Source: Desulfovibrio sp. (lineage in GTDB: Bacteria > Desulfobacterota > Desulfovibrionia > Desulfovibrionales > Desulfovibrionaceae). From it: DNA of 37,947 bases. The notes below the pieces were generated by a model that was not told the origin of the DNA, did no database searches, and saw nothing but the letters and a program-made list of their open reading frames with translations. The position numbers and the translations under genes were made by a program. This document shows positions 1,034 to 16,109 of this stretch, one piece after another. The stretch's first letter is position 1; every line of letters starts with the position of its first letter. The stretch lies in the NCBI GenBank assembly GCA_024692205.1, contig JAILMX010000033.1, forward strand, positions 1 through 37,947. The letters are read 5' to 3'.

Positions 1034-1049
1034 TACAGGAGATCGCGAC

Positions 1050-3185
1050 ATGATGAACGATAAAACGCGGGTCCCCTACGTCATGTTCCTTTTGCTGGCG
1101 GCCATCGGCGTACTCGTTTTCTGCATCGCGAACTGGATGCTGGAGACGAACCGGCAGGAGCAACTTAGGTCGATCGGCCATGATATGTCGGCGGACGCTT
1201 CGCGTCAGGTTGCTCTTATCACCGTATGGAAGGGCGCCGTCGCAAGCGGCTTGGAGGCCTTCACGCGGATGGACATGCTTCAACTGCTCGCCGCTGAGGT
1301 GGAATCGGCCGCCATTCCTGCGAAAAAACTCCTTGAACTGGGGGGTAATGCTGCAACAGGCAATGGGCCCGGGGGCGACGGCGCTGATTCAGGCGGCCTT
1401 GAAAATTCTCGTCAGACGACGGAGGAATCTACGAAACTCAGGCAGCTCGCCACGAAACTGCCGCTCATGCTCCGGCAGATGCTTGAACTGATCGAAAAGA
1501 ACAATCTTTCCTCGGCTTGCCTGCTCGATGTCCACGGCGAGCCTTGGCTTGCGCCCACATCCGTGCCGGATGTGGGCGACGAAGCCATGAAGAAACGCCT
1601 TAAGCAGGTCATTGACGAAGGCGTGCCCGTCGTGCTCCCGCTCAGAAAGGAACACTCGACTCTTGTGGTCGATCTGGCTTTTCCCGTCTTCGCCCCCCGC
1701 TATCTCGACAGGTCGGGCAAACGTGTCGTCGCCATTCTGCTCAGTACCTGCAGCGTACTGCCTGTCGTGAAAGCGACCACCATGCTCAATGCTAAGGGCA
1801 GTTATACCTCGGCCCTGCTTGAAGATCGGGGCGGAGTTCTCCATTTGCTCGATGAGGTCGGCTCAAGAATGGATGCGCTCACGGAGGGCTATTCCCTGAA
1901 GGACGGGATCCTGCCGCTCGCATTGCGTGAGATGCCCATACGGGCGGGGGGAAAAGTACCTGCGTACACCTTGACCGTCTCCGTGCCGGACATGCCGTGG
2001 CATGTGCTGCATGCTACGGATGCCGCTGATGTTGATGCCGCCTACGCGCAGTTCCGCCGCAATGTCTTCATCGGCGCGTGCCTCGTGATGGCGCTAGCGG
2101 CCATAATCATGATCGCTCTGTGGTGGTGGCTCGCAGGTCGCCGGGAACGCGTCATCGCTGATGAGATGCGCGGGCTGTATTTGATGGTTAACGAGCAGAA
2201 GCAGATCATCGACGGCGTAAACACGGCGCTCTCTGCGGGCATCGTGCTGAACGACCTTTCGGGAGTCATCTACTATGCGAACCAGAGCTACGCCGATATG
2301 GCGGGCATGACGATAGAAGCCATATCGGGCATCACCTACGATAAACTGCCTGATGAGCTTGCGCGCAGTCTTGTCGAGCACACCATTGCCGTCAACGACA
2401 CCGTGGAGAAGGCCGATTTCGCAGAAAACCTGTCGCTCGCTGGTGGAATGCGGCATTTCATAACGTCCTGTAGCCCCTTCATAGACCACGAAGGTCAGTT
2501 CGTCGGCATGGTTTCGGTTTACAGCGACGTAACTGAGATGGTTGCCTCTCAAGAACGCACCCAGCGCATGGTCAACCAGACAGTGCAGGCTCTTGTGCGC
2601 GCCATCGAGGCTGTCGATCCGTATCTGTGCGGTCAATCCTTCTTCACTGCCAATCTGTCCGTCAGCTTGGCGGAGCAGATGCGCATAGCCGACGCTTCGA
2701 CGCAGTCCACCTTGCGCACTGCGGCAAGCCTTTCGCAGATAGGCATGATCCGGCTGCCGCGTGAGATAATCCGCAAGACTGGCGTACTCACCGAGGAAGA
2801 ACGCGCACAGATGCACCGCCACGTTGAATACGCCCGCAACATCCTGGCCGAAATAGATTTCGGCCTGCCCATCCTGCCGGCAATAACGCAGATGTTCGAG
2901 AGGCTGGACGGCTCAGGTTATCCTGCGGGGATCACGGGGGAGTCCATTTGCCAAAATGCTCGCATCCTCGCTGTCGCCAATACCTTCTGCGCTCTCATGC
3001 GTCCGCGTTCGTACCGTATGGCCCATGATATTGCGGAGGCTTTAGAGATTCTGGGAACGCAGCCCCCGCGCTATGACCCGGAAGTCGTGAGCGCACTGCA
3101 TGATTTTCTGGAGACGGATGACGGTCATGCTTTCCTGCATGATCTCGTGTCGGCCGACATCGGAGAAGAAGACACCGTCGACTGA
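1050..3185 (+). CDS. Membrane PAS protein with degenerate HD-GYP domain
   Basis: A two-span sensor protein of about 711 residues. TM1 is near residues 9-30, an extracytoplasmic sensing region follows, and TM2 is near 338-362. A PAS domain lies at about 385-495, and the C-terminal region (about 510-690) follows the HD-GYP fold. Active HD-GYP enzymes hydrolyse c-di-GMP using HD, HDxGK and HHExxDGxGYP motifs. Here HDIGK is replaced by SQIGM and the HHE before DGSGYP by MFE. VADVYDAL has become VANTFCAL. One later His (MHRH) and the GYP remain. Catalysis is therefore unlikely; a binding or scaffolding role is inferred. The ORF track starts at GTG 1023, but ATG 1050 has AGGAG at 1036-1040, so I use 1050 (ATG 1053 is also possible). 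It follows the secretion adaptor closely. Confidence 0.85.
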   Translation: MMNDKTRVPYVMFLLLAAIGVLVFCIANWMLETNRQEQLRSIGHDMSADASRQVALITVWKGAVASGLEAFTRMDMLQLLAAEVESAAIPAKKLLELGGNAATGNGPGGDGADSGGLENSRQTTEESTKLRQLATKLPLMLRQMLELIEKNNLSSACLLDVHGEPWLAPTSVPDVGDEAMKKRLKQVIDEGVPVVLPLRKEHSTLVVDLAFPVFAPRYLDRSGKRVVAILLSTCSVLPVVKATTMLNAKGSYTSALLEDRGGVLHLLDEVGSRMDALTEGYSLKDGILPLALREMPIRAGGKVPAYTLTVSVPDMPWHVLHATDAADVDAAYAQFRRNVFIGACLVMALAAIIMIALWWWLAGRRERVIADEMRGLYLMVNEQKQIIDGVNTALSAGIVLNDLSGVIYYANQSYADMAGMTIEAISGITYDKLPDELARSLVEHTIAVNDTVEKADFAENLSLAGGMRHFITSCSPFIDHEGQFVGMVSVYSDVTEMVASQERTQRMVNQTVQALVRAIEAVDPYLCGQSFFTANLSVSLAEQMRIADASTQSTLRTAASLSQIGMIRLPREIIRKTGVLTEEERAQMHRHVEYARNILAEIDFGLPILPAITQMFERLDGSGYPAGITGESICQNARILAVANTFCALMRPRSYRMAHDIAEALEILGTQPPRYDPEVVSALHDFLETDDGHAFLHDLVSADIGEEDTVD

Positions 3186-14006: not shown

Positions 14007-16109
14007 TCAGACGAGATAGCGCGCGGATTCGTCTTCGGCGACGACTTTCCCGTTGTCGTCCTGATAGCAGTCATAGATGGCGGCAACGATGTCCTGAATG
14101 TCCTCTAAGCAGTCCACGAGTTCCGGGTCGAAATGGGTCCCCGCTTCTTCCTTGAGGATGCTGAGGGCTTTCTCCGGTCCCCAAGCATCTTTGTAACTGC
14201 GCTTCGAGACGAGGGCGTCGTACACGTCGGCCACCGCCGTTATTCGGGCGCAGAGGGGGATGTTTTCGCCGGCCGGCGAGGGAATATCGGGATCGCCCGT
14301 ATAGCCTTTGCCATCCCATCGGGCGTGGTGGTGCAGGGATATGTCATGCACCATGCGGTCGATTTCGTGATGCCCCCCATCGAAAAGACTCGCTCCGAGC
14401 GCCGTATGGCGCTGCATGATATGGTACTCGTCGTCTGTGAGGCGTCCCGGTTTTTTCAGAACAGAGTCTGGTATGCCGAGTTTGCCAACGTCGTGCAGCA
14501 TCGCGGCGAGGCGCAGCTGGCCTTTGGCCACGAGCATGTCCTCGGGGTCCACCCCGTGCTTTTCGGCCCACTTGTGGTAGAGCTCCGCGGCCACGCTGCC
14601 GACGCGGAGCACGTGCATGCCGGTTTCCTTGGGGTCATGCATGTTGCCTGCGAGCAGAATGCGCTCGATCGTGTCGTAGATGGTGGCGGCGCGCTGCAGC
14701 GATATGTTCGTTATTATGCCGAGCTTTGCGATGAGCGATTCCATGGCCGGAGCGAAGGGGACAGTGCGTCCGTCGCGGGTGCTGTTAATAAGCTGGATGA
14801 CGCCGATGACCTTGCTTGCCGCGTCGCCCTCGCGAAGCGGCATTGCGAGCACCGACCGGGTGCGGTAGCCCGTTTTCTTGTCATAGGAAGGGTTGAAGCT
14901 GAACGGTATGTGCGCCGGCATGCAGTAGACGTCGGCTATGTTGAGCGTCTTGCCCGTGCAGGCCACGTAGCCCGCGATGGAGTTCTGGTTGAGCGGGATC
15001 CGCGAATTGAGGTAGACGGCCTTGCTTGCCTGCGAATAGGGAAAGAGCGTGTCGTTCTGGCTTGCGGCGAAGAGGAGCTCGTTGCCTGAGCGCAGATAGA
15101 TGGTGCCCGCGTCAGCCCCCGTGAAGTCCCGCGCCTTGCGCAGTATGGTCGTCAGCATGGTGTGCGATTCTGCATGGCCCGAGAGATAGGGCAGAAAATC
15201 ACAGATTTCGCAGTGTTCCGCCTCATTGCCGCCTGCGTCGACAAGGCCTTCGCGGTCGATGGCCGCGCTCTGCTGCCCGGCTTGTATGGTCATGGGCAGG
15301 CCGTCGTAGCGGGCATGGAGCTCGGCAAGGGAGCGGTCGATATCCCTGTCTGTGTAGTCGGGGCTGTAGTGCGTGTAGATGAGATGGCGTACGCCGCGCT
15401 CCGCAAGGGGCTTTGGCCATTGGCAAAAATGGCTGTGGCCCCAGCCGGGGTGCGCCTGATGATCGTGCTCTGTGAAGTGGGCGTCCGCGAGGACGACGTC
15501 CGCCCCGGCCAGAAAGGTGAAGAGTCGGTCGGTGACCGCCGTGCGGGAGATGTCGTCATTGTCGTTGAGGGGGATCTCGTGGTCGCCGGTGAAGGCGAAA
15601 CTCCAGCCGTCTGCCGTTATGCGGAAAGCCGTGCAGCCACCGGGGTGGCAGGTGGGGCAGGTCGTTACGCAGGCAGAACCGAGTCGCAGCTCATCTCCCG
15701 CCGTGAAATCGCGCAGCCCGTGACGCGGCACGTCCTTCCACTTCAGGGGGAACTGCACGCCGTCGAAAAGGCGCCCTAGGGCCATATTCAGGTCAAGGAT
15801 CTCTCCTGCAAGCGCACCGTGGATGACGAGCCCGCTATCAGCGTTGTAGACTGGGGCAAAGAAGGGCAGCCCCTGTATATGATCGAGATGCCAGTGCGAC
15901 AGCAGAAGATGCAGGCTGCGTATGGAGCCACTCTCGATTTCCGGCATGAGGCTCTTGCCCAGATCCCGAATGCCTGTGCCGGCATCAAGGATGAGCACGT
16001 CGTTTGCATCAGTGCGGATTTCGATGCAGCTCGTCATCCCGCCGTAGCGCGAGAAACGGACACCGTTTGCGGGGAGGGATCCGCGTGTTCCCCAAAGACG
16101 TATCAACAT
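14007..16109 (-). CDS. Metallo-beta-lactamase / GAF / HD-GYP fusion phosphodiesterase
   Basis: A 700-residue cytoplasmic fusion of three modules. Residues 1-270 are a metallo-beta-lactamase fold with LLLSHWHLDHIQG (H72, H74, D76, H77), a FTGDHE strand, ADAHFTEHD and YTHYSPD, close to the RNase Z/phosphodiesterase branch. Residues about 320-470 are a GAF domain (IAGYVACTGKTLNIADV). Residues about 490-690 are an HD-GYP domain with intact MLHDVGKLGIPD (H539, D540), MQRH, HHHARWDGKGY and VADVYDAL. The GYP signature reads GYT. HD-GYP enzymes degrade c-di-GMP to pGpG or GMP; the metal ligands here look complete. The first domain could act on another phosphodiester. There is a Cys-containing linker, HCEICDFLPY, before the GAF domain. 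The promoter side faces the tRNA-Val region. The Shine-Dalgarno sequence is weak. Confidence 0.88.
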   Translation of the reverse strand: MLIRLWGTRGSLPANGVRFSRYGGMTSCIEIRTDANDVLILDAGTGIRDLGKSLMPEIESGSIRSLHLLLSHWHLDHIQGLPFFAPVYNADSGLVIHGALAGEILDLNMALGRLFDGVQFPLKWKDVPRHGLRDFTAGDELRLGSACVTTCPTCHPGGCTAFRITADGWSFAFTGDHEIPLNDNDDISRTAVTDRLFTFLAGADVVLADAHFTEHDHQAHPGWGHSHFCQWPKPLAERGVRHLIYTHYSPDYTDRDIDRSLAELHARYDGLPMTIQAGQQSAAIDREGLVDAGGNEAEHCEICDFLPYLSGHAESHTMLTTILRKARDFTGADAGTIYLRSGNELLFAASQNDTLFPYSQASKAVYLNSRIPLNQNSIAGYVACTGKTLNIADVYCMPAHIPFSFNPSYDKKTGYRTRSVLAMPLREGDAASKVIGVIQLINSTRDGRTVPFAPAMESLIAKLGIITNISLQRAATIYDTIERILLAGNMHDPKETGMHVLRVGSVAAELYHKWAEKHGVDPEDMLVAKGQLRLAAMLHDVGKLGIPDSVLKKPGRLTDDEYHIMQRHTALGASLFDGGHHEIDRMVHDISLHHHARWDGKGYTGDPDIPSPAGENIPLCARITAVADVYDALVSKRSYKDAWGPEKALSILKEEAGTHFDPELVDCLEDIQDIVAAIYDCYQDDNGKVVAEDESARYLV

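Follow-up and report, generated by a model that had tools for sequence, protein, structure and literature searches.

The gene at positions 1050 to 3185 (forward strand) of the window, by which we mean the whole 37,947-nucleotide stretch of Desulfovibrio sp. DNA analysed here, encodes a 711-residue protein, DvhDa, which is a member of the DvhD family of c-di-GMP receptors. DvhDa is probably a non-catalytic receptor that restrains a LapG-type protease and so keeps adhesins exported by a type I secretion system (T1SS) on the cell surface, a reading in which we have considerable, though not full, confidence. As judged from sequence, it draws on the architecture of the protein, the loss of its metal site, the conservation of its c-di-GMP contacts, its linkage to secretion genes and its co-occurrence with LapG and adhesins; the binding of c-di-GMP by DvhDa, the direction of the switch and the control of LapG would follow the precedent of the D. 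vulgaris work. The initial annotation had suggested a non-catalytic, LapD-like HD-GYP receptor tied to adhesin export, and this is supported both by the T1SS upstream and by the homologue DvhD, in which such a receptor has already been demonstrated (PMC13090378); the HD-GYP-based analogue of LapD is thus a published system.

DvhDa has the architecture of DvhD

Read directly, the open reading frame runs from an ATG at position 1050 to a stop at 3183-3185, with a probable ribosome-binding site, AGGAG, at 1037-1041 (+), 8 bases 5' of the ATG. The stop of the preceding hlyD gene lies at 1031-1033, which leaves exactly the 16 bases between adaptor and receptor that had been reported initially. The protein consists of a transmembrane helix, a periplasmic dCache domain (approximately residues 57-324, positions 1218-2021, assigned by profile and fold matches to 9rc2), a second transmembrane helix, a PAS domain (residues 394-497, positions 2229-2540; PF08448, PAS_4, 1.7e-10) and an HD-GYP domain without metal site (residues 514-679, positions 2589-3086; PF13487, HD_5, 3.9e-40), all on the forward strand.

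This is the arrangement of DvhD (DVU1020, BfsD), the c-di-GMP receptor of D. vulgaris Hildenborough, for which crystal structures of the PAS/HD-GYP part (9rc0), the HD-GYP domain with c-di-GMP (9rbz) and the dCache domain (9rc2) have been solved (PMC13090378), and which is also described in PMC11784015; the genetics and nomenclature of the system are given in PMC11784015 and PMC5646257. In DvhD the HD pair is replaced by SQ and the double histidine is absent; the protein does not hydrolyse c-di-GMP and binds it at about 0.1 uM (effective Kd 99 nM). It controls the LapG-type protease DvhG in a reconstituted system, and this control is proposed to depend on c-di-GMP, so that DvhD would resemble LapD in function while being made of different domains (PMC13090378). 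These structures are the best PDB matches of DvhDa, both by single sequence (9rc0 1.8e-57, 9rbz 1.6e-46, 9rc2 2e-9) and by profile (9rc0 1.8e-108, 9rbz 5e-83 and, with the A1 profile, 9rc2 8.9e-41). An AF2 model, built with an alignment (A4) thinner than the deep alignment of relatives, reached a mean pLDDT of 83.6, and its top six Foldseek matches are all DvhD, the HD-GYP domain aligning to c-di-GMP-bound 9rbz with a TM-score of up to 0.93 on the target and the dCache domain to 9rc2 with an E-value of 8.7e-12 and a TM-score of 0.80 on the target.

A scan of named genomes for relatives of DvhDa with the single sequence gave no match, and the corresponding profile scan found matches in named Desulfovibrionaceae. 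Gene trees resolve three well-supported groups, namely DvhDa together with one further receptor (L073), the DVU1020 group, and, on a long branch, a second receptor of the genus, here called DvhDb. Since the root of these trees is not known, DvhDa and DvhDb may be co-orthologues, and for the same reason we dropped the proposal that DvhDa, rather than DvhDb, is the strict orthologue of DVU1020.

The metal site is lost and the c-di-GMP contacts are retained

In DvhDa, the HDxGK motif is replaced by SQIGM (S562 to M566, positions 2733-2747, +), with S562-Q563 for the HD pair and M566 for the lysine; HHExxDGxGYP has become MFERLDGSGYP (2892-2924, +), with M615-F616 for the two histidines; and VADxxDAL has become VANTFCAL (2973-2996, +), in which N644 takes the place of the later metal-binding Asp. 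The initial claim that the HD, HDxGK and HHE ligands are all replaced while GYP is kept is thus borne out, GSGYP being still present. The catalytic HD pair is missing from all 76 sequences of the family that were compared, among them DVU1020, and the homologues with intact catalytic motifs that would have contradicted a receptor role were thus absent from this set. A second HD-GYP gene in the window (14007-16109, reverse strand) serves as an internal control and retains HDVGK and HHARWDGKG. Because the pair is missing from every family sequence compared while this second domain is intact, the degeneration of DvhDa is not a matter of chance. The control gene, which joins a metallo-beta-lactamase fold and a GAF domain to its HD-GYP domain with intact HD motifs, looked unusual in this combination.

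DvhDa accordingly lacks the HD, HDxGK and HH ligands expected of an HD-GYP phosphodiesterase. One could speculate that it still degrades c-di-GMP through a non-canonical site, as some HD-GYP variants tolerate substitutions, but we regard this as extremely improbable, the iron-ligand motifs being replaced as in DvhD, which was inactive on c-di-GMP with any ion added (PMC13090378).

By alignment, DvhDa retains the c-di-GMP contacts Y523, P567, L577, Y621, R650, Y652 and R653 of DVU1020, and the changes K582R and M646L are conservative. Of these, Y621, a c-di-GMP contact in DVU1020 (PMC13090378), corresponds to Y624 within MFERLDGSGYP, and R650, Y652 and R653 correspond to R653, Y655 and R656 in a contact loop, RSYR (3006-3017, +), that is invariant across the close family. 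The bridging-site K520 is Val in DvhDa; in D. vulgaris, mutating K520 alone had little effect (PMC13090378). In a 14-sequence alignment of DvhDa and its close relatives, 8 of the 9 contact positions are invariant (hypergeometric p 1.7e-4 against the domain background). Separately, we observed that the T1SS-linked receptors of four genomes (G211, G220, G238 and G260) are highly divergent, the DvhDa of G211 being without most of the contact residues.

The exporter locus and the protease locus are separate

Directly upstream of DvhDa lies the gene for an hlyD-type membrane fusion protein of a T1SS (2-1033, +; PF13437, 6.2e-18), which TIGR01843 identifies as a type I secretion adaptor (272.8 bits, cut-off 208.65). 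The window opens inside this gene at the contig end, which cuts its 5' end, and the rest of the T1SS is known from a second contig of the same bin, C40, and from relatives. Positions 1-1702 of C40 overlap positions 1-1702 of the window without gaps at 90.6% identity, and C40 is probably a strain variant or a near relative of the same locus; judging by this overlap of two contig ends, the bin appears to contain the DvhDa locus in two strain variants. Upstream of its receptor, C40 carries TolC, a LapB/LssB-type ABC exporter (TIGR03375, 898 bits) and a complete HlyD of 580 residues to which the HlyD of the window is 97% identical. The ABC exporter that the initial annotation proposed to look for upstream is present on C40, and the adaptor-receptor pair is conserved in relatives, the order TolC-ABC-HlyD-receptor recurring in congeners and the secretion genes lying upstream of nearly all DvhDa loci.

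The expectation of LapG and an adhesin in the immediate neighbourhood did not hold. Compared with the canonical Dvh operon, the adjacent LapB-type T1SS is there and dvhG next to dvhD is not: the only LapG found in this genome, which has the motif GDCED, is encoded on contig C178 beside DvhDb, and the giant adhesins are elsewhere. The typical order in the family is ABC-HlyD-LapG-DvhD with a single receptor, as in nine of the loci compared. In the GTDB genus Desulfovibrio, lapG is missing from the secretion operon and sits elsewhere with the divergent DvhDb. The same split occurs in two other genera (G001 and G089), and in two genomes (G196 and G203) the secretion and lapG halves stand back to back. 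LapG and ABC exporter trees both separate the genus, together with G001, G089 and G138, from the rest. Judged by gene order, two receptors with one unlinked protease would constitute a variant of the published DvhD system; in the main text of PMC13090378 we found no such split, and the word paralog is not used there, although the supplement may list it.

Given that DvhDa is strictly linked to TolC-ABC-HlyD and directly follows hlyD while lapG lies elsewhere, it could instead gate the secretion apparatus, either export itself or the engagement of TolC, in response to c-di-GMP, leaving the control of LapG to DvhDb. We consider this unlikely. Most members of the family have LapG-DvhD at this position, which suggests that the T1SS linkage was inherited from an adhesin-retention operon, and gating of export is unknown for any receptor of the DvhD family.

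The system co-occurs with giant adhesins

In the genus, 55 genomes reach a completeness of 90% or more. A comparison of the sets by hand showed that 41 of them carry the ABC exporter together with a LapG and a DvhD, and that the remaining 14 lack every one of these genes. By reading two profile scores, we found DvhDa in 36 and DvhDb in all of these 41 genomes, and in near-complete genomes DvhDa never occurs without DvhDb. Conversely, in five near-complete genomes DvhDb is the only receptor that accompanies an exporter, LapG and adhesins, one of these genomes (G253) having a different exporter that is 56% identical; DvhDa is therefore not always needed.

Well-assembled congeners contain giant RTX open reading frames of 2,856 to 7,681 codons with a shared N-terminal module, which we recognised by reading the starts of these frames. 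This retention-like module of about 100 residues ends in D-x-x-PAAG, and PAAG is the LapG motif class described for the D. vulgaris system (PMC13090378). The retention module model NF033682 gave no match above its cut-off in the window's own genome or in related genomes. The module with its invariant D-x-x-PAAG is present in 35 of the 41 genomes that have the system and in none of the 14 others (Fisher p 8.9e-9), although the genomes are related and p values therefore overstate their independence. Up to ten retention-like modules were seen per genome (G190 and G234). The window's own bin, an assembly of 263 contigs, gave no match to the adhesin N-terminus and contains a fragment of RTX repeats at a contig edge.

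The second receptor has lost the GYP tyrosine

The GYP tyrosine that corresponds to DVU1020 Y621 is present in 23 of 24 DvhDa against none of 39 DvhDb of the genus, one DvhDb being unreadable at that position. Most DvhDb of the genus are also without Y523, and those of the window's subclade lack the PAS domain and Y652 as well. Judging from repeated matches in the PAS region, the number of PAS domains in DvhDb ranges from none to several. Three DvhDb (L102, L114 and L115) have a length of 952-1092 residues, and the latter two appear to have repeated PAS domains. R650 and usually a Tyr or Trp at 652 remain, and from these residues DvhDb may still bind a nucleotide.

One possible, though doubtful, explanation is a division of labour in which DvhDb docks LapG with its c-di-GMP site lost or changed, and DvhDa senses c-di-GMP, acting for example through a heterodimer or by competing for LapG. 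The contrast at Y621, the further losses of PAS and Y652 in the window's subclade and the absence of DvhDa without DvhDb from near-complete genomes would all fit such a division, as would the fact that HD-GYP receptors act as dimers (PMC13090378). Against it, the receptors of genomes with DvhDb alone have lost Y523 and Y621 too, most having Trp at 652, so the loss is independent of a DvhDa partner, and the residues that DvhDb keeps may still allow it to bind a nucleotide. The same genomes weaken the simple proposal of a takeover by DvhDa that freed DvhDb to lose its c-di-GMP site. At a similarly tentative level, one could picture in the genus Desulfovibrio a two-receptor circuit in which a c-di-GMP-competent DvhDa with the exporter and a nucleotide-site-altered DvhDb with the protease jointly, perhaps as a heterodimer, set a single LapG that acts on up to ten adhesins.

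Discussion

In the mechanism we propose for DvhDa as a receptor restraining LapG, a periplasmic dCache domain would be coupled to a cytoplasmic PAS/HD-GYP module that can bind but not cut c-di-GMP. At high c-di-GMP the HD-GYP dimer would change shape, and this change would be relayed through the stalk and the membrane helices to the periplasmic part, which would then restrain the LapG-type cysteine protease, so that giant adhesins leaving through the LapB-type T1SS encoded next to DvhDa would stay anchored by their N-terminal retention module. Once c-di-GMP falls, cleavage by LapG at PAAG would set the adhesin free. A genome of the genus would thus operate DvhDa with the secretion genes and the divergent DvhDb next to lapG.

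Several observations weigh against this reading. LapG is not beside DvhDa and has its own adjacent receptor, and direct action of DvhDa on LapG is for that reason only inferred. To this we add the genomes with DvhDb alone, the change of K520 to Val, the bin without a match to the adhesin N-terminus and the contact losses in the DvhDa of G211.

The split provides a natural experiment on how DvhD receptors restrain LapG, as a comparison of genomes separates the receptor with the preserved c-di-GMP site from the one that has remained beside the protease. With DvhDa, the DvhD family is extended to a genus whose members include gut Desulfovibrio, and a prediction follows as to which proteins govern surface attachment in sulfate reducers of the gut.

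With the catalytic HD-GYP phosphodiesterases (PmGH, the 4mcw family), DvhDa shares the HD-GYP fold (Foldseek to 4mcw, E-value 8.7e-12), but its iron-ligand motifs are replaced. With LapD of Pseudomonas fluorescens it would share the logic of an inactive c-di-GMP enzyme module used as a receptor that controls LapG and adhesin retention, whereas the domains are unrelated: LapD is built from LapD/MoxY, HAMP, GGDEF and EAL, and DvhDa from dCache, PAS and HD-GYP, a Pfam search of DvhDa giving PAS and HD domains only and neither LapD/MoxY nor GGDEF-EAL. From DVU1020, to which it is approximately 43% identical over the HD-GYP domain, DvhDa differs at K520, K582 and M646, in the missing dvhG between hlyD and the receptor, and in the second receptor, DvhDb, of its genome; the two are alike in the order dCache-TM-PAS-HD-GYP, in SQ for HD and the absent double histidine, in their c-di-GMP contact residues and in their linkage to a T1SS.
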